Positions 6,136-22,586 of a stretch of DNA of 22,586 bases are shown piece after piece. The stretch spans positions 1-22,586 of the IMG/VR virus record IMGVR_UViG_3300033144_003345; one strand, written 5' to 3'. A model generated the notes under the pieces. It saw only the letters and a program-made list of their open reading frames with translations. It was not told the origin of the DNA and ran no database searches. How positions within the stretch are numbered: the first letter of the stretch is position 1; every line of letters begins with the position of its first letter. Source of the DNA: a virus. A program made the translations under genes and the position numbers.

Positions 6136-6942
6136 TTAAATTAATTCTACAAGTAAGCCGCACCATGAATGCGCTGGCTTGTACTTAACTATTAAACTTA
6201 CAATTTCATCCCGTCTCGATACGGGTATTTCCGCAAATTCAATACTGGTCAGTTCGCCTGTTCCTGGATCTCGTGTGGCTGGTCCCCCAACGAAAAATAC
6301 GAGCGGCCAATACCCGGAGTCTATAGGCCGGGGATAGGTAACTAAATACCTAGCGATATCCCCATTAGTACCACCGCAAACCGCACTCGCCACACCGCAA
6401 AGCGCTTCCGTGCCACCACATACGGTCGTATAGGTTAGCTCATTGACATAAAGTTCCCCGTTTACTATGAGATCCCCCCCGGCACCACCCGCCCCACAAA
6501 CCGCACTCGCCGCTCCACAAACCGCACTCGCCGCTCCACAAACAACCAAAAACTCATCGGATATAAATAGCGCTGGATTAACCGGGGGGTTATTACGATG
6601 GACATAAACATCAAACCCGGCCAGCCGTAATTTCTCCTGGATAAAAGTATCCGTACCATCGTTTTTATTAGCAGTTTTCGCAGACAATAACCGCGCGCGC
6701 CGTTCAGCTTCCGATAGATCCGGGTTTGGTATAAGCCCCCATTCTTTGTCAGCATCATCTAGAATCGGGGTTTTTCCGGGAATACGGGTATACGCTAATT
6801 GTGCCAAAAATTCTTGAATCGGTATCTCATTATCGGAAATACCATCCAGGAGTTTATCCAAATGCCCATCCACCGTCGGAACCCATAACGGGCCGGGTGG
6901 TAAAAGGGCGTCTATTACGGGCCTGTAGGGGCTATTAGACAT
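6136..6942 (-). CDS. Mu gp48-like baseplate protein (DUF2313/YmfQ type) with Cys repeats
   Basis: 268 aa from the ATG at 6942 (MSNSPYRPVIDALLPPG). This start overlaps the gp47 stop as ATGTCTAA, the same 8-nt junction seen at 10536-10543; the longer frame would start at a GTG at 6972. The N-terminal half (LLPPGPLWV, LDKLLDGIS, AERRARLLSAK) matches the family that caps the baseplate between the J-type wedge and the fibre. Residues about 133-190 carry an unusual run of VCGAASA-type heptads with seven Cys-Gly pairs, encoded in part by a 21-bp tandem repeat. The C-terminus (IVSLIVKYKPAHSWCGLL) is typical of the family. Between gp47-like and fibre genes, as in Mu. Confidence 0.85.
   Translation of the reverse strand: MSNSPYRPVIDALLPPGPLWVPTVDGHLDKLLDGISDNEIPIQEFLAQLAYTRIPGKTPILDDADKEWGLIPNPDLSEAERRARLLSAKTANKNDGTDTFIQEKLRLAGFDVYVHRNNPPVNPALFISDEFLVVCGAASAVCGAASAVCGAGGAGGDLIVNGELYVNELTYTTVCGGTEALCGVASAVCGGTNGDIARYLVTYPRPIDSGYWPLVFFVGGPATRDPGTGELTSIEFAEIPVSRRDEIVSLIVKYKPAHSWCGLLVELI
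6494..6543. repeat. 21-bp tandem repeat, 2.4 copies, inside the gp48-like gene
   Basis: Two identical copies of a 21-bp unit beginning ccacaaaccgcactcgcc (6494-6514 and 6515-6535), plus 8 nt of a third. Each unit encodes one SAVCGAA-type heptad. Degenerate relatives of the unit lie at about 6372-6420 in the same gene. In-frame length allows gain or loss of whole heptads by slippage. Confidence 0.9.
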
Positions 6943-8113
6943 ATGATACTGTTCCCAGTTTAGCCAATTCACCCGGCTCTAAAGTATACAACTCTATGTC
7001 TCCCGTACCTTCTCGATTAAAGCTCACAGTTTCCGCAGAACCACCGAACCCATCAAGTACGCTTTGCACTACACCCCCGATAGTAAGTGTGGTTATTGTA
7101 TCATTTCGTTCAGAAATTAAGTCGATACCCTCCACAAAGGGCCTTATATCCCTTAAATAAAAATCTAAACCGGCGGATATATCTGACTGGGCTTGAGCTA
7201 ATAAACTGGCATCTATGGTAAGCCCCGTTACAGTTACATTAAAAATACTCCGGGTAATAGCAAGGACATCCATGGGCGTATCTTCCAAACCTAGTGGCGG
7301 CCTTGATCGACTTGTTTCCGGGTCGAAATTAAGCGCTTCCCGTACATCATCAAGTAAAGATTGTGGTGGTATCCCGTCAATCTGAATATCGGTGGTAGCC
7401 TCTATAAAAATAGTTCTATCCCCAGGAAAGGTTGACGAAGGTGCCCCAAAATTTCTACCTGAATAAGGATACGCCGTTTCTACCCCGGATACTCCTTCCG
7501 CCCAAATCTTATAATCTGTGGTATTTCCACCCCCCGGACTAGATCGGATAGCAAAAAGAACCCTTTCTCTGTACGCTTCTTGATCTTCTTTATCAGCGCC
7601 CGTGGTATTTACAATAGTTACCACCCCTGTAGACGCGGCCCCCGGAATTTGTACGGACATAGTAAGTGTCGCCCCTACATCCAGATTTCCTACCGCTCCG
7701 GCTATTTCCGCCGTCATAGTGGGGGTAACAATACCGCCCACGGCGACTACTAAAGAATCAGAAAAATACCGGATTCCATTGGCTTGACCTATAAACGCCG
7801 TACCCGCCGGAATAGGAGTAGTATCAATAGCCACAATTTCAACGCTTAGATTGGTAGCTACCGCCGGGTTTATGAGCGTATCATACTCAATCCCTATGTT
7901 CTCTAAATCCTCCCCGGTAGCAGTAAGCGCAAGATTTTGTTTAGTTCTTTCAACTCCGAACTTATATAGCTCAGTCTGATTTATCGCCCCCACAGCAGAT
8001 AGTACCACGTTAAACGCTTTATCATTCGGGGGTGTATCTTGATTCAGACGGGCTTCTATATTAGTTAAATTACGCTCTTGTATTTCTCGGGTGGTAGGGA
8101 TATTTAGGGCCAT
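6935..8113 (-). CDS. Baseplate J-like wedge protein (Mu gp47 family)
   Basis: 392-aa structural protein forming the baseplate wedge that triggers sheath contraction. Visible family marks: N-terminal PTTREIQERNLTNIEARL, the ATGEDLENIG segment near residues 65-75, IPAGTAF, then EDQEAYRERVLFAIRSSPGGG with TDYKIWAEGVSGV in the central domain. Length fits the Baseplate_J family. The ATG is 2 nt after the gp46-like stop; the 3' end overlaps the gp48-like gene by 8 nt. Neighbour order gp45-gp46-gp47-gp48 matches phage Mu. Confidence 0.93.
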   Translation of the reverse strand: MALNIPTTREIQERNLTNIEARLNQDTPPNDKAFNVVLSAVGAINQTELYKFGVERTKQNLALTATGEDLENIGIEYDTLINPAVATNLSVEIVAIDTTPIPAGTAFIGQANGIRYFSDSLVVAVGGIVTPTMTAEIAGAVGNLDVGATLTMSVQIPGAASTGVVTIVNTTGADKEDQEAYRERVLFAIRSSPGGGNTTDYKIWAEGVSGVETAYPYSGRNFGAPSSTFPGDRTIFIEATTDIQIDGIPPQSLLDDVREALNFDPETSRSRPPLGLEDTPMDVLAITRSIFNVTVTGLTIDASLLAQAQSDISAGLDFYLRDIRPFVEGIDLISERNDTITTLTIGGVVQSVLDGFGGSAETVSFNREGTGDIELYTLEPGELAKLGTVSYV

Positions 8114-11795: not shown

Positions 11796-13741
11796 TAGTG
11801 ATTAGCCCCCAAAAGAACTACATCCAATCCAAAAGCCCCCGCCCCCTCCGTGGCTACCGTTGATCCTTCCGGCGCTCCGGCGATATCAAGACGTCCACTA
11901 AACTGCGACGATTGCGCCCGAACTTCCTCTTGGTTAGGAGGTATTACCGATGCTTCGGCCCTTATTTTAACTTCGTCTTGGAGTTTATTTATGGTACTAA
12001 CTACCTTATCAAGACCTGAAGTATCGAAACCTAATATCTTGCCGAATTTAGAAGCTGCTGAAACAACAGCTTTCACAATAGTTCCCCAGATTGAAAGGAA
12101 AATATTGGCGAAAGTAAAGAATACTTTTTTAATAACATTAATTGCTATCGTAAAACCAAATTTCATTTTCTCCCAAAGTTTATCAAGCTGTTCCCCCATA
12201 AATTCAACAGCAATCCCCCAGACTTTCTTTACCGTATCCCAGTTCTTAACTAAAAGAACTATTATGGCGATAAGCGCGGCAATTCCGATTATAACTATAC
12301 CTATGGGATTAGCTGACATAATGACGTTAAATAACCCCTGTGCGGCTGTAGCTGCCTGAATCATTTTTATAAATTGCAATAATTGAATAGTACGCATAGC
12401 CACACCATAGGCTATCATACCCCCTATGACTACCGGCAATATGGGCTTTAGGAAATTAAAAATCGCTACAAGGGTTTTAACTCCACTTATAAGAGTTCTT
12501 ACACCCTCAATAACCGGCCCCATATCAAACTGCCTAAAAGCTTCTGTGGCTTTTGTAATCCCTTTTTCAATACCCCCCTCAAAAGCTTCAAGGAATTTAA
12601 AGCCCATTTCAACTGCCGCAGAGCCTAACGTTTTTAAACGATTACCTAGAGACTGCCGCATACGGTTTGCCGTAGCTTCCGAAGTTCCAGCCGCGTTTTT
12701 TAATGTTTGCTCAAATTCTCTTACTCCCCGTATGGAATCGGCGAGAGTTGCAGCGCCGGCGGCAGCTCTAAGGCCAAATATGCTACTAAATACACCAAGC
12801 TCCTGTTGTTTTCCCTTAAATCCTAATTTATCAATTCTCTTAGTAAGTAGATCAAGAATATCTGTTACTTTTTTCATTTTACCGCTCTTATCAACCAAAT
12901 CCGCTTGCGTTAATCCAAGAGAAGCAAGACCTTTTGTGACTTCTTTAGTCGGCGAGGCTAAGCGTACAAATGAGTTTTTTAACGCCGTTGCGCCTAACGT
13001 GCCCTTAATACCTGAATTACCAAGAATAGCAGTTAACGCCGCGACCTCTTCAAGTTCCGCCCCATATTTCCGGGCTATCGGAGCGGCAAATTTCATGGTT
13101 TCGAACTGACTTTCGATTGTAACGTTTGCACTATTCGCTGATTTTACTAAGACATCATTAAGTCTGTTAAGTTTAGATATTTTTTCAGCGGTGTTATCAA
13201 TCTGACCGAAGAAAGCGCCCAGTAAATCGGTGGAAAAATCCGCAACAGTCGCGAATTCTTCGCCGGAGGCAGTCGCTAAATTAATCATACTATCTAACGC
13301 GCCCATGGCTTCCGCTGAAGTAAAACCCGCACGAGCTAAAAAATCCAGAGCTACAGCCGCCTGGGTGGCCGTTTGTTCAGTTGTAGCCCCCGCAAGCCTA
13401 GCCCTGGATTTTAAAACCCGCATTTGTTCGTTAAAATCTTCGGCGAGAGGACCAATATCCTTAAAACGTGCTGCCGCTCCGGTAATAGCATCGTCAAAAT
13501 CGAAAAATTGACTAGTTACTGAGCTTATACCTTGCTTTACTAAACCAAGACCACGCTGTACGGCACTTGCCGCAAGAATACCTTTAGTAATACCCTTAAA
13601 CTTTGAGCCACTTTTTGAGGCTTTAAGAAATGCCGCGCTTGCTTTATTCCCAAACTTTTCCGCCCCCGCCCCCATTACTTTAAACGTACCAGCAAGTTTA
13701 TCCCGTCCTTTAAAAGTAGTGGAAACCAAAAAATCAGGCAT
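11795..13741 (-). CDS. Tail tape measure protein
   Basis: 648-aa protein that sets tail length and enters the host envelope. Residues about 80-290 match the phage tail tape measure domain (FDDAITGAAARFKDI, TQAAVALDFLARAGF, ALDSMINLATASG, FETMKFAAPIARKYG, NSGIKGTLGATALKN). Two hydrophobic stretches at about 425-445 and 478-499 (IGIVIIGIAALIAIIVLLV) can span a membrane. The C-terminus is Gln/Ser/Gly-rich. It is short for a tape measure, implying a short tail tube (roughly 100 nm by the usual length ruler, an inference). It begins 8 nt before the end of the gpGT frame-shift extension. Confidence 0.95.
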   Translation of the reverse strand: MPDFLVSTTFKGRDKLAGTFKVMGAGAEKFGNKASAAFLKASKSGSKFKGITKGILAASAVQRGLGLVKQGISSVTSQFFDFDDAITGAAARFKDIGPLAEDFNEQMRVLKSRARLAGATTEQTATQAAVALDFLARAGFTSAEAMGALDSMINLATASGEEFATVADFSTDLLGAFFGQIDNTAEKISKLNRLNDVLVKSANSANVTIESQFETMKFAAPIARKYGAELEEVAALTAILGNSGIKGTLGATALKNSFVRLASPTKEVTKGLASLGLTQADLVDKSGKMKKVTDILDLLTKRIDKLGFKGKQQELGVFSSIFGLRAAAGAATLADSIRGVREFEQTLKNAAGTSEATANRMRQSLGNRLKTLGSAAVEMGFKFLEAFEGGIEKGITKATEAFRQFDMGPVIEGVRTLISGVKTLVAIFNFLKPILPVVIGGMIAYGVAMRTIQLLQFIKMIQAATAAQGLFNVIMSANPIGIVIIGIAALIAIIVLLVKNWDTVKKVWGIAVEFMGEQLDKLWEKMKFGFTIAINVIKKVFFTFANIFLSIWGTIVKAVVSAASKFGKILGFDTSGLDKVVSTINKLQDEVKIRAEASVIPPNQEEVRAQSSQFSGRLDIAGAPEGSTVATEGAGAFGLDVVLLGANH

Positions 13742-13886
13742 TATCTATTTCCTCTTTAACTGCTCGGTTCAACGCTTCATGCCACTCATTCCAGTACTTA
13801 AGCTCGTGGAAATCCATGGTTTTTATAATGTCCGGGGAAACCCTTCTATAAAAAAGGTTCCCCATCCATTGATGAACATGATCCAT
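13734..13886 (-). CDS. Tail assembly chaperone T frame (expressed by -1 frameshift from G)
   Basis: 50-codon frame MDHVHQWMGNLFYRRV...KEEIDNA between the chaperone and the tape measure. It is in the -1 frame relative to the preceding 135-aa gene and is joined to it through the slippery heptamer at 13901-13907, giving a fusion of about 186 aa (through VTTGL into MDHVHQW). This is the lambda G/GT, P2 E/E' and Mu arrangement found upstream of tape measures. The frame has an ATG in a TAATG overlap with the G stop, so independent initiation is also possible. High Trp/His content and the WNEWHEAL helix resemble other T extensions. Confidence 0.8.
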   Translation of the reverse strand: MDHVHQWMGNLFYRRVSPDIIKTMDFHELKYWNEWHEALNRAVKEEIDNA

Positions 13887-14293
13887 TAAACCTGTAGTAA
13901 CAAAAAACCTAAAGACTCCGCAATGGACAAATCCGCACCTTGTAACTTAGAGATAGCTGTTTCCCCAAGACCGGTAATAGATCCCATAATGGCATAAATT
14001 CTACCAAATATATCCGTATCTTTTTTACCCTTCATCGCTAACTTATGTTTACCCGATACTACCGAGTATTCCAAACTATCCCCATTTTTAAGTATCTGTG
14101 TAACGCAAAGAGAAGAATCTGCTTCTCTAATCTCCAGCCGACCTTTCATGATAGCTTTAATCAACTTATTGGAAACCGTTTCAAACTGCTCCTTAGTTGC
14201 TTCATTGGCGAAATCATCAGCTTCCAAATCATAAAAACCTAGGAACAAATCAAACTGTTCGCTTGCTACTTCCCAACTTATAATAGTTGTCAT
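13886..14293 (-). CDS. Tail assembly chaperone (gpG-like)
   Basis: 135-aa acidic protein between tail tube and tape measure, the fixed position of tail assembly chaperones. The sequence MTTIISWEVASEQFDLFLGF, FETVSNKLIKAIMKGRLEI and SLEYSVV-KGKKDTDIFGRIYAIMGSITG fits chaperones of the kind that bind the tape measure. The last codons contain the slippery heptamer. The ATG follows an SD (GAGGGG) in a 25-bp leader identical to the leader of the 57-aa gene upstream. Sequence similarity alone would not settle the family; the position, size and frameshift do. Confidence 0.85.
   Translation of the reverse strand: MTTIISWEVASEQFDLFLGFYDLEADDFANEATKEQFETVSNKLIKAIMKGRLEIREADSSLCVTQILKNGDSLEYSVVSGKHKLAMKGKKDTDIFGRIYAIMGSITGLGETAISKLQGADLSIAESLGFLLLQV
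13901..13907 (-). other. -1 ribosomal frameshift slippery site U_UUU_UUG
   Basis: In the chaperone gene the codons GGT TTT TTG TTA place the heptamer T TTT TTG in the X XXY YYZ register. Slipping back by one gives TTT TTT and then GTT ACT ACA GGT TTA ATG, which enters the T frame 5 codons before its ATG. It lies 5 codons before the zero-frame stop, as usual for tail chaperone frameshifts. Confidence 0.8.
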
Positions 14294-14315
14294 GATAACC
14301 CCTCGCTTTGTTTAA
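14291..14315 (-). repeat. 25-bp direct repeat, copy A (leader of the chaperone gene)
   Basis: Starts catgataacccctcgctttg on the plus strand and is identical to 14489-14513 over 25 bp. On the mRNA it holds the GAGGGG SD and the ATG of the chaperone gene. Confidence 0.95.
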
Positions 14316-14317
14316 GT

Positions 14318-14491
14318 TTACAGTATCATACTGACCTCATTACCCTCAGAAATACCCGTGGCGGGTATATCGTGATGTGCGGTAATAGCCGCCGCCGTTT
14401 TTTCAGCTATAGCAACCGAATCATCCCCGGGGGAAACATCGCACACAATCCATACACCCGCTATTTCTGCTCTAAACTGTTCCACGCTCAT
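14318..14491 (-). CDS. 57-aa protein homologous to an internal module of the tail sheath
   Basis: Short gene MSVEQFRAEIAGVWIVCDVS...SMIL with a GAGGGG SD. Without gaps it aligns to sheath residues about 115-160: IAG matches IAG, and DDSVAIAEKTAAAITAHHDIP matches DDSDAVAIKAAAAITADQDLP, 15 of 24 identical over the DDS-to-T/G segment. It therefore looks like a free-standing copy of the beta-rich module of Mu-type sheaths. It lies between the tube and the chaperone, fills the gap exactly and has its own start signals. Its role is unknown: a tail accessory subunit, or a leftover of a duplication. I favour a real gene because the frame is intact. Confidence 0.7.
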   Translation of the reverse strand: MSVEQFRAEIAGVWIVCDVSPGDDSVAIAEKTAAAITAHHDIPATGISEGNEVSMIL

Positions 14492-14513
14492 GATAACCCC
14501 TCGCTTTGTTTAA
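14489..14513 (-). repeat. 25-bp direct repeat, copy B (leader of the 57-aa gene)
   Basis: Identical over 25 bp to 14291-14315, spaced 198 bp apart. It carries the SD and ATG of the 57-aa sheath-module gene. Confidence 0.95.
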
Positions 14514-14515
14514 TT

Positions 14516-14896
14516 TTATGCCGCTAAAAACGGCTCCCATTTACCCGCCGGGTGAAATTGTACCGTTGCCCGGAGTTCTTCCGTTTCCCTGTTTTCGACC
14601 TCAATAGATCCCGTCGCTCGGTATACGTCACCACCTGCCGTTTCATAGGACATGGGAAAATCAACGGTAGTTTCTCCAAGCAGAATTAAAACTTGCTTTT
14701 CTTCCCCATTCGCAGCTAACGTAATGGATTCAACTTTTGGAACCCGCCGCGTCATTTTCTTAATATTACGCCCTGACGTCGGAATTCTATCGTTTTCAAA
14801 ACGTGTAATTGTTTCCGAAAAATTAGAATCCGCAAAAACATCAAAAGTAGTGCCGTCAAGCGTAACTTTTCGTATGCTTCCACCTGTATCAGACAT
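14516..14896 (-). CDS. Tail tube protein
   Basis: 126-aa protein that polymerises into the inner tail tube under the sheath. RKVTLDGTTFDVFADSNFSE, then RIPTSGRNIKKMTRRVPKVE and LRATVQFHPAGKWEPF are familiar from tube proteins of Mu/P2-like contractile phages. It lies directly after the sheath gene (13 nt gap) with an AAGGAGG SD. Start codon is the ATG of MSDTGGS. Tube call is strong from position and sequence. Confidence 0.88.
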   Translation of the reverse strand: MSDTGGSIRKVTLDGTTFDVFADSNFSETITRFENDRIPTSGRNIKKMTRRVPKVESITLAANGEEKQVLILLGETTVDFPMSYETAGGDVYRATGSIEVENRETEELRATVQFHPAGKWEPFLAA

Positions 14897-14909: not shown

Positions 14910-16472
14910 TTAGATTGATAGCACCGCTATACTCGTATCAAATTGGGTTACGGTATCAAGAATAGCGCCCTCACCCGATAAAATAACGCTGAGGATACTA
15001 TCAAACCCAGTGTTTCCCGCGCGTATTGTTACGGCCCCAGATTCCGCCAATTTCTCGATAGTAAAAGCAGCCGTATACAACCAGGCTTTAGACTCGAAAC
15101 TAGTGGCCAGTGTGGATAACTCATCCTTAACGCTGTCTATGTCCCGGGCCTTAAGCCTATCCGTGGTATTAGTTACTGCCGTAACATCCGCGACAATAGA
15201 AATACCCTGCCATTTTTCCGCTTGAAAAGTAACTTTAACGTTATTCATGATATTCTGCAGAATGCTAATATTACGCATGGATCTATAGCCGTTTGACTCA
15301 ACCGGAACACTATCCGGATGGTAAAAAGTTACCACATTTTGGAGAGTTACCGCCCCGTTTTGGATAGCTGTTGGACTTATCCCCGCTTTAACAGCCGTGT
15401 CTCTATCATCATAATCCGAAGTCCATCGATCCGATGTAACCCCCGCGAAAATATCAATAAGCGGTATCCCGATATAACTCTGGGCCGCTCTATCAAGATT
15501 AATCCGGGCCATATGCCCCATAGTTTGCGCCGCTATTTCCGACGGATGATTAGGAGAACCCGGAACCGCAATTATCCCGTTAGCCCTATCAAGTTTCCGG
15601 TTATTTCCAAGGGCTACAAGAGCGGAAAGACCGCCCGAACCGGCAACAACATCCCCTGTTAATACCCTGAAGGGCCGGGCTACTAATTTATCATAAAGCC
15701 CGATGAAGTCATTCCCCGCCCCGACATAAGCGGAAATAGCATCCAGAGTTGTACTATCTTGGAGATACCCGTGGACAACATCCGTAAAGAAATTTTCGTT
15801 TGCGTCATCTCCGGTACCGAGTCCATCCAAAGCTGTGGTTATATCCGGGACACCTGCCCCACTGGCCATATCCGTTATTACTAGGGTAAGCCCGGACGGA
15901 GTTTCCTGACCAAAATTAAGATTAAAATCAATGGTAATATCATTACCCCAAGGAGCACCTGTTTTTGCGGTTATATCTATTTGCTCTGTTGTAACCCCGT
16001 TTACTACAGCCGTAACCGGTAAATCCTGATCGGCAGTAATAGCCGCTGCTGCCTTTATAGCCACAGCATCAGAATCATCCGCCGAAGTAACGGTAAAAGG
16101 TACCGGTAAACCTGCTATGTATAAGTACACCGTTCCCGATTCTAAACTGGCCGCTGTGAAAGTTATATCCCCCGCAGCCTGAACCGCCGAACCGTCTTCC
16201 GCCTGAGGAACAACCCAAGTTTCGACCCCGTTTGATCCCGTAAAGGCCTGTATCGCTAATCGGTGTATCATTGACCCAAAACCAAATTTATCACCCGCAT
16301 CCGCCGCACTCGTTATAAGCACCGGCACATCGTCCACAATTGTAGTTATGGCCGGATCATAAGTGCCTATGATGAGTATTTTTCTCGGCACATTGGTAGC
16401 TTCGGCGCTAAATCTTACATTCTGAACGCCCGCACCTACCGCCGTCGCCAAACTTGTAGCATTAAGTGGCAT
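14910..16472 (-). CDS. Tail sheath protein (Mu gpL-like)
   Basis: 520-aa contractile sheath subunit. The N-terminal region (NVPRKILIIGTYDP, DAGDKFGFGSMIHRL, WVVPQAEDGSA) is characteristic of Mu-type sheaths. Residues about 115-170 hold a beta-rich module (VYLYIAGLPVPFTV, VAIKAAAAITADQDLPVTA), homologous to the 57-aa gene at 14318-14491. Later segments include NRKLDRANGIIAVPG, HMARINLDRAAQSYIGIP and the C-terminal EKLAESGAVTIRAGN, which in sheaths forms the conserved domain that links subunits to the tube. Its presence establishes a contractile tail. Confidence 0.95.
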   Translation of the reverse strand: MPLNATSLATAVGAGVQNVRFSAEATNVPRKILIIGTYDPAITTIVDDVPVLITSAADAGDKFGFGSMIHRLAIQAFTGSNGVETWVVPQAEDGSAVQAAGDITFTAASLESGTVYLYIAGLPVPFTVTSADDSDAVAIKAAAAITADQDLPVTAVVNGVTTEQIDITAKTGAPWGNDITIDFNLNFGQETPSGLTLVITDMASGAGVPDITTALDGLGTGDDANENFFTDVVHGYLQDSTTLDAISAYVGAGNDFIGLYDKLVARPFRVLTGDVVAGSGGLSALVALGNNRKLDRANGIIAVPGSPNHPSEIAAQTMGHMARINLDRAAQSYIGIPLIDIFAGVTSDRWTSDYDDRDTAVKAGISPTAIQNGAVTLQNVVTFYHPDSVPVESNGYRSMRNISILQNIMNNVKVTFQAEKWQGISIVADVTAVTNTTDRLKARDIDSVKDELSTLATSFESKAWLYTAAFTIEKLAESGAVTIRAGNTGFDSILSVILSGEGAILDTVTQFDTSIAVLSI

Positions 16473-17520: not shown

Positions 17521-17781
17521 TTATTTTTTCTTGGTTTTGGCATCTGCATCAGCTTTAGCCTTAGCATCCGCATCGGCTTTAGCTTTGGCATCTATATTAG
17601 CCTTGACTTTAGCCTCAGCGTCAATTTTAGTCATAACGTCCGCCTTACCTTCAGCCACCACTATCCCCTTATCTATCCAAACTTGAGGAACCTTATGATC
17701 CTCGGGAAGCGGATCACCTTTATAATACTTCTTATTCCCGATTCGGATCTTTCCTTTATTTTTAGTACATATGTATCTCAT
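17521..17781 (-). CDS. Small capsid-adjacent protein with Ala/Lys/Asp repeats (lambda FI position)
   Basis: 86 aa. Residues 1-45 (MRYICTKNKGKIRIGNKKY, GDPLPEDHKVPQVWIDKG) look like a small folded domain. Residues about 48-86 are low-complexity with an 8-residue repeat, DAKAKADA, in two exact and one degenerate copy, ending DAKTKKK; charged, Ala-rich and probably a long single helix. Just after the capsid gene, the place where lambda has FI, which helps DNA packaging, but the sequence does not look like FI. SD AAGGAGG; the next gene's ATG follows the stop directly. Confidence 0.7.
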   Translation of the reverse strand: MRYICTKNKGKIRIGNKKYYKGDPLPEDHKVPQVWIDKGIVVAEGKADVMTKIDAEAKVKANIDAKAKADADAKAKADADAKTKKK

Positions 17782-21050: not shown

Positions 21051-21841
21051 TATGATACCCCAAAAAATTTAAGAAATGATAAAGGAACCTCGCGGCCTTC
21101 CGCTATAATGTTGAACGCCAAAGCGTTACCTATTAGATCGTCTTGTACGAGGCATTCAAGGGCGTCATCAGGGGCTAACAGTAAGGGCGTCCCATGTTTA
21201 TCCTCCCCAGCCCAAGTAACACGACCCCCAAGCCCATCAACTCCCCCCTGAACAGGATAAAAACTAAGATCATACCCCCAGTTTAAAAAATCCTGATTAG
21301 ATTTAATATTATTAAGATTCCTTATAACCCCGTTGTTAACTCTAAACACCAACCCTTGTGTTAATGCCGTGCCGTCTCCAAACTGGCCCAGCTCGGGAGG
21401 TGAAAACGTAACCATAGATATAATTATCCTATTTATAAGTAAATATACCCCACTACCTAACCCGCCCGCACGTACACTGAAGGTCTGGGTCGAAACGGAA
21501 CCATCAACTAATAGATCTTTACTAAAAGCTACAACTGGATCATCTGTTTCAAAAGGAAAATCAAGGGGGGAATCTAGGTCTATATCATCCACTGTCGGTG
21601 CCCCTATTTGAGTTCCGAAATAAAACCGGCCCTCCTCGGAAGTTCCACTGAATATACCCACCCGTGTTCCGTCAACAAAACCGGTAGCATCCGTCAAACT
21701 GACGGTTTTATCCTCTATGCTGGCATCCGACGCTATTGTGGTGACTCCCCCGGTACCGATAACAAACGGCAAATACACAGGCGTACTTACCGAAGGTATG
21801 TTTCGTACAAACAAGCCCGGATCACCATTTCCTATGGTCAT
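21050..21841 (-). CDS. Phage structural protein, 263 aa, beta-rich
   Basis: Protein between the surface-protein paralogues and the protease. Beta-rich by eye, with DKTVSLTDATGFVDGTRVGIFSGTS (about residues 44-68), VYLLINRIIISMVTFS and a C-terminal section WAGEDKHGTPLLLAPDDALECLVQDDL, which I recognise from virion-associated proteins of other phages. No enzyme motif. TAATG overlaps on both sides suggest coupled translation. It may be a head or accessory surface protein; function uncertain. Confidence 0.65.
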   Translation of the reverse strand: MTIGNGDPGLFVRNIPSVSTPVYLPFVIGTGGVTTIASDASIEDKTVSLTDATGFVDGTRVGIFSGTSEEGRFYFGTQIGAPTVDDIDLDSPLDFPFETDDPVVAFSKDLLVDGSVSTQTFSVRAGGLGSGVYLLINRIIISMVTFSPPELGQFGDGTALTQGLVFRVNNGVIRNLNNIKSNQDFLNWGYDLSFYPVQGGVDGLGGRVTWAGEDKHGTPLLLAPDDALECLVQDDLIGNALAFNIIAEGREVPLSFLKFFGVS

Positions 21842-22317
21842 TATCCAATTCCTTTAAGTGTAAAAGTTAAATGCTCGATATCTATAGACCGGGCATTAGC
21901 AGACCAAATTCGTATTTCTAAAACAAGGGGTACATCCCCCTCGGTTAACTCAAATTGATTAAGGGCAGATAAAAGCTCAACCACATTAGAATTTTGAATA
22001 TCCACGGATTTTACTGTATCTGGAACAAGTACGCCATCTGCATAAAAACCTGCAGACGCTGTAGTCACACCGCTCAGTGAAAAGGACATACCCATCATAA
22101 CCTCATACGCCCCTGGAGTATTGAGGGTAAACTGTCCGGCGGCCCCATCTAACGTAATCCCCGAATTAACACCCTCGTTTAAATCATCTACAACACCGGG
22201 AGTAACCACGATAATGCCCGAATACGCATCAGACTCAAGGATATACAGTTCCCCATAATTACCTAGAGCCCCTAAGGCTATACCCGGTCCCGAAAAACCA
22301 TTACCAATACAGAGCAT
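21841..22317 (-). CDS. Virion surface-type protein, paralogue of the next gene
   Basis: 158 aa. The C-terminal 80 residues (MMGMSFSLSGVTTASAGFY, GVLVPDTVKSVDIQN, EGDVPLVLEIRIWSANARS, DIEHLTFTLKGIG) are about half identical to the partial gene at 22317-22586. The alternating strands with a GFYADG turn resemble the jelly-roll of TNF/C1q-like phage surface domains, an inference. The N-terminal half (GNYGELYILESDAYSG, then TLDGAAGQFTLNTPGAYEV) would complete the fold. TAATG junctions at both ends. Possibly a head decoration or fibre-like protein. Confidence 0.65.
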   Translation of the reverse strand: MLCIGNGFSGPGIALGALGNYGELYILESDAYSGIIVVTPGVVDDLNEGVNSGITLDGAAGQFTLNTPGAYEVMMGMSFSLSGVTTASAGFYADGVLVPDTVKSVDIQNSNVVELLSALNQFELTEGDVPLVLEIRIWSANARSIDIEHLTFTLKGIG

Positions 22318-22586
22318 TACCCAATCCCTTTAAGCGCAAAAGTAAAATGGTGTATGTCCATACTCCGGCTAATATCCGAAGAAACCCGAGTATCGATAAG
22401 AAAAGGGAGATCCCCTTCTTCCACTTCAAATTGACCGAAAGCGGAAAGCTCCGCGATTACATTAGCGTTTTGTACCTGGACGCTCATTTCTGTTTCGGGT
22501 ACAAGCACACTGCCCACAAAAAACGCCGCCGTAACCGTGGCCCCGTTAGAAAGATTGAAAGACATACCCATAATACCATCATCTGC
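22317..22586 (-). CDS. Paralogous surface-type protein, 5' end outside the window
   Basis: Only the C-terminal 89 residues are in the window; the frame is open to the edge (ADDGIMGMSFNLS). IMGMSFNLSNGATVTAAFF, VLVPETEMSV, EGDLPFLIDTRVSSDISRS and the final LKGIG mirror the neighbour gene, so this is a tandem duplication. Start is unknown and the ATG at 22571 is not assumed. Function as for the neighbour. Confidence 0.75.
   Translation of the reverse strand, partial: ADDGIMGMSFNLSNGATVTAAFFVGSVLVPETEMSVQVQNANVIAELSAFGQFEVEEGDLPFLIDTRVSSDISRSMDIHHFTFALKGIG

Follow-up and report, generated by a model that had tools for sequence, protein, structure and literature searches.

The window, by which we mean the whole 22,586-nt stretch analysed here (positions 1 to 22,586 of IMG/VR virus record IMGVR_UViG_3300033144_003345), carries on its minus strand a Mu-type contractile tail cassette in which sheath, tube, a 57-aa open reading frame (ORF), a chaperone-position gene with its -1 extension, tape measure and baseplate genes follow one another in that order. 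The sheath gene (14910..16472, minus) encodes a Mu gp39-like protein of 520 aa that matches PHROG 165 with an E-value of 2.5e-66 and whose structural model finds the Mu sheath chains 9khy (E 4e-26) and 9ki1 (E 1e-25) as its best Foldseek matches. The 57-aa ORF (14318..14491, minus) begins with ATG; its upstream neighbour is the tail tube gene (14516..14896, minus; 126 aa; PHROG 4699, E 7e-6) and its downstream neighbour a gene of 135 aa (13886..14293, minus; PHROG 4648, E 1.5e-15). PHROG 4648 names no function, so that our assignment of this downstream gene to the tail assembly chaperone is founded on its place before the tape measure (13741-11795, minus, from the PHROG and ORF annotation of the window), on synteny and on a -1 frame extension; a single-sequence search with the protein returned no match. 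Past a slippery T TTT TTG within the chaperone-position gene the -1 frame stays open for about 50 aa, giving an extension at 13734..13886 on the same strand, so that gene and extension together span 13734-14293.

The nearest relative found is JAGLON010000048.1, hereafter L032, a phage-like contig of 44.8 kb that was assigned to a metagenome-assembled genome of Candidatus Zixiibacteriota (Zixibacteria). It is colinear with the window at about 80% DNA identity, its sheath is 95% identical, and it conserves the slippery site of the chaperone gene together with the extension, but the latter lacks the ATG that is present in the window, in keeping with programmed frameshifting of the lambda G/GT type. 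A sheath search of 132 genomes of its phylum recovered only the known contig, and since the other 131 genomes carry no such sheath the host assignment of L032 is uncertain. Elsewhere in the window, a radical SAM-like gene (2096-2947, plus; Pfam E 6.4e-5, below the curated cut-off) lies between the DNA polymerase gene and a DUF4326 gene, at a position where L032 has no similar DNA; a low-complexity KADADAKA run is encoded in an 86-aa gene (17521-17781, minus), and repeated AVCGAAS units occur in a 278-aa gene (6136-6972, minus).

Homology to the sheath and predicted fold

The sequence-only reading of this locus had described the ORF as a free-standing copy of a sheath module lying between tube and chaperone, aligned without gaps to sheath residues of about 115 to 160, with 15 of 24 identical positions in the DDS...PxT segment and a common IAG anchor. 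All of this is borne out: the gap-free alignment covers sheath residues 119-159 with 20 of 41 positions identical, the core segment yields the same count of 15/24, and the IAG anchor is found in both proteins. The local BLOSUM62 score is 90, whereas 2000 shuffles averaged 30.8 (sd 4.6) and reached at most 51; at the DNA level 82 nt of the ORF (14356-14437) are 72% identical to positions 16010-16091 of the sheath gene. When the whole record is searched with the ORF, the sheath is recovered at E 9.5e-8 and there is no second match; PHROG 165, annotated as tail sheath, is likewise the sole family matched (E 0.0035, profile positions 120-166). A sheath-module profile built from 25 sheath segments, with the ORF left out, recovers the ORF at E 8e-8, and among 7937 frames of 42 loci the ORF is the only match of this profile outside sheath frames. 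To judge from these comparisons the resemblance is homology, far above chance, and the ORF is a diverged copy of a module of the sheath.

The corresponding module of the sheath gene (15963..16139, minus; residues 112-170) lies inside a predicted extension domain: the sheath model (pLDDT 82) has a domain inserted at about residues 98-205, of which the copied part comprises two strands, a helix and two further strands. The ORF model has the same beta-beta-alpha-beta-beta arrangement at a pLDDT of 89.6, a prediction steered by a multiple sequence alignment that consists mostly of sheath modules. Against the PDB, the first two Foldseek ranks of this model are the sheaths of Milano and A-1(L), with TM-scores by query of 0.61 and 0.74 and no significant E-value, while a viral structure library gave nothing significant. 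The structural match between the 57 residues and the sheath module, for which a profile search or a structure model had been proposed, is present. By the models, and by comparison with Agrobacterium phage Milano, whose gp20 has an external sheath extension domain at residues 91-203 (PMC10811340), the copied stretch is the central beta-beta-alpha-beta-beta part of the sheath extension domain, which faces outwards. The label of a mini-sheath, which the sequence-only reading also used, goes too far, the copy being a sub-piece of a peripheral domain without polymerising or tube-touching parts. Subunits of the Milano sheath are linked through a handshake domain and terminal arms (PMC10811340); the ORF, which spans only sheath residues of about 112-170, includes neither a body domain nor the N- and C-terminal handshake arms, so that a free fragment of this kind would presumably be unable to build a sheath. 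Nor, at 57 aa, is it a second full-length sheath paralogue of the jumbo-phage type.

A duplicated leader and an empty site

A feature that the sequence-only reading had missed is a 31-nt direct repeat bracketing the ORF. The first copy (TAAAATTAAACAAAGCGAGGGGTTATCATGA; 14488..14518, minus) holds the tube stop region, the Shine-Dalgarno sequence GAGGGG and the ATG of the ORF, and the second (TAAACTTAAACAAAGCGAGGGGTTATCATGA; 14290..14320, minus) the stop codon of the ORF, a Shine-Dalgarno sequence and the chaperone ATG. The two leaders are 97% identical, and each extends from the stop codon of the gene before it up to the next ATG. L032 has the tube gene, then a single leader identical to the second copy of the window, then the chaperone gene, which is the arrangement of an empty site: the window differs from it at this junction by a clean unit of 198 bp, and a close relative with an empty site thus stands beside a window with a duplicated flank. 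We considered the near-identity of the leader copies as proof of a very recent event and dropped this argument; the leader is also identical between the window and L032, and a sequence that remains unchanged between two genomes at about 80% identity is a poor clock. A search of IMG/VR with the leader DNA pattern found none.

The ORF is confined to the window in every comparison that was made. It is absent from 25 of 25 contigs in which both tube and chaperone were found, that is, from L032 and the other 24, and a small gene of this kind, for which the sequence-only reading had proposed to search other phages at this place, does not appear in these relatives as a conserved accessory gene would. 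In the whole records of 22 relatives, matches to the module are confined to sheath genes, and neither single-sequence searches of annotated phages and IMG/VR with the ORF nor a DNA search of phages brought up a relative. The tube/chaperone junction itself tolerates inserts in related phages: Acinetobacter phage Scuro has an 89-aa gene (Scuro_02) and Vibrio phage 1.174.O a reverse-strand cluster (genes 15-19) at this position. Four further relatives have a non-coding stretch of 147-152 nt there (L010:5947-6099, L013:5947-6100, L020:5952-6109 and L021:5952-6109) with a common multi-branch fold of 30 pairs, five of which show two-sided changes. The stretches of L010 and L020 have no Rfam match, and the folding z-score is -3.6 in L020 and only -0.95 in L010. 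This junction element is possibly structured, the evidence being weak because the four contigs represent only two distinct lineages.

Origin, age and function

We consider that the ORF probably arose when part of the sheath gene of this same phage lineage was duplicated, together with a start signal, and that it most likely has little or no function. Roughly codons 111-167 of the sheath, the beta-beta-alpha-beta-beta core of the extension domain, would have been copied into the tube/chaperone junction and the 31-nt leader of the chaperone duplicated along with the fragment, which would thereby have gained a Shine-Dalgarno sequence and an ATG of its own. Its product may be initiated about as strongly as the chaperone and form a small domain that folds and stays soluble; given the favourable start signal and a fold predicted with confidence, the ORF is probably translated. 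It would now be under weak or no constraint, most likely with little or no function, and recombination between the two leaders would remove it exactly and restore the empty site. Upstream of the IAG anchor, the continuation of the DNA homology does not reach significance alone (P 0.08 and 0.47), leaving the exact duplicated boundaries uncertain; nor did a test give significant support to the idea that the first nine ORF residues derive from sheath DNA read in a shifted frame.

That the source lies in the same lineage is indicated by a comparison with 29 sheaths, among which those of this phage and of L032 have the highest DNA identity to the ORF. The proportion of differences at synonymous sites is 0.57 for this phage and 0.45 for L032, and at least 0.67 for the others; in a DNA tree, built on just 41 codons and with low support values, the ORF groups with these two sheaths on a long branch (0.55, against 0.06 and 0.02 for theirs). 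Synonymous divergence (dS) between ORF and sheath is 0.7-1.1, comparable with the divergence of the two genomes from each other (0.45 in the sheath, 0.7-1.4 elsewhere), which would place the duplication at about the time of the split from L032, whether before or after it. Two histories are compatible with the data: the insert was gained in this lineage, or it was already gained when the lineages parted and L032 then lost it exactly by way of the repeats. Were the insertion very recent, its divergence from the sheath would call for rapid evolution or for a donor that has not been sampled. A young duplication specific to this lineage is the most likely account of the ORF. Tandem duplication also appears elsewhere in the window genome, since two adjacent genes (21841-22317 and 22317-22586, minus) each match both of two tandem L032 genes at 45-51% identity.

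The main alternative concerning the source is that an already diverged sheath fragment of an unsampled related phage entered the tube/chaperone junction by illegitimate recombination. This would explain why the leaders are 97% identical when the payload is only 63-65% identical to sheath DNA over 41 codons, and the inserts of Scuro and 1.174.O show other arrivals at the junction; however, the nearest sampled sheaths are those of this phage and of L032, synonymous sites included, and the leader comparison loses its force once leader identity is recognised as a poor clock, so that we regard this origin as unlikely. An assembly artefact is conceivable in that the window is a single metagenomic contig, but misplaced sheath reads cannot explain an insert whose best identity elsewhere in the record is the 72% over 82 nt noted above, and we give this explanation almost no credence. 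Very improbable, too, is a role of the insert as DNA or RNA, be it as a spacer or as a second chaperone initiation region, in which the peptide would be irrelevant: the exact duplication of the leader from stop to start codon and the 147-158 nt gaps of other relatives would suit such a role, which nevertheless leaves the sheath homology of an open frame to be explained. Nor does the RNA of the insert fold in an exceptional way (z -1.66), and the idea of an unusual structure there was discarded.

Whether the peptide matters is a separate question, and a functional accessory would be made as a subunit of its own, binding the surface or the extension domains of the sheath, or keeping its subunits spaced until they assemble, and would in this way modulate how the tail is assembled or how stable it is. 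Its intact module and confidently predicted fold (with the qualification already made about the alignment) and the good, duplicated Shine-Dalgarno sequence would be in keeping with this, as would the copying of the module almost exactly at structural boundaries, the frame that is still open, and the persistence of a fragment between 31-bp repeats that are expected to recombine and from which it should be easily lost; the last three count against the duplication account as we have framed it. Against the sheath, second codon positions of the ORF are more conserved (76%) than third positions (49%), which would likewise suit an accessory. In neutral simulations the probability of no stop is 0.42-0.58, and a similarity to the sheath as high as that observed, marginally above neutral drift, arises with P 0.026-0.07; this slight excess speaks for an accessory and against the duplication account, and constraint is hinted at but is not significant. 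Nonsynonymous divergence between ORF and sheath is about 0.39, and as the sheath's own dN/dS between genomes is about 0.06, nearly all of it should fall on the ORF branch, where by our estimate the ratio is at least about 0.5. Moreover, Y118, invariant across the aligned sheaths, is lost in the ORF, the arms and body domain that make the inter-subunit contacts in Milano (PMC10811340) are missing, and the ORF occurs in one genome only, its closest relative being without it. We accordingly lean against a functional ORF and hold an accessory subunit to be distinctly unlikely; the more specific proposal of a newborn accessory gene, its start signal copied from the chaperone, whose small, separately translated sheath-derived protein docks on or modulates the contractile sheath, seems to us quite improbable. 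The sequence-only reading, which had left the choice among accessory subunit, decoy and duplication product, is upheld as regards duplication by the homology, the duplicated leader and the empty site, whereas nothing positive speaks for the accessory or the decoy. It had also held that absence of the frame from close relatives, with near-neutral rates, would tell against its proposal: the closest relative indeed lacks the frame, and the substitutions depart only marginally from a neutral pattern.

Relation to known systems

A limited search of the literature brought up no earlier description of a sheath module encoded on its own. Read as a duplication, the locus offers an example of the birth of a small ORF, in which a module of a virion gene was probably copied and an existing translation start duplicated before it, with an empty site at hand for comparison. 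A functional ORF would represent a sheath accessory of a new class, whereas one without function advises caution, as small module-bearing ORFs in phage structural operons may be duplication debris. Scuro_02 and genes 15-19 of Vibrio phage 1.174.O share with the ORF the syntenic place of insertion, and no sheath similarity was found in these two loci outside the sheath gene. The module family of the ORF matches residues of about 117-164 of the Mu gp39 sheath (PDB 9khy; PHROG 165), and the predicted module is common to both, although the ORF amounts to only about 50 of some 500 residues and has neither the N- and C-terminal arms nor the body domain. In Milano gp20 the homologous stretch (residues 110-163) lies inside the sheath extension domain, where the module is one domain of the sheath subunit and not a separate gene, and the ORF covers only about half of that domain. 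Two copies of the tail sheath protein, products of gene duplication, are known from jumbo phages (PMC9230969), and the present case resembles theirs in being a sheath duplication within a genome, but differs in that only a 57-aa fragment is concerned.
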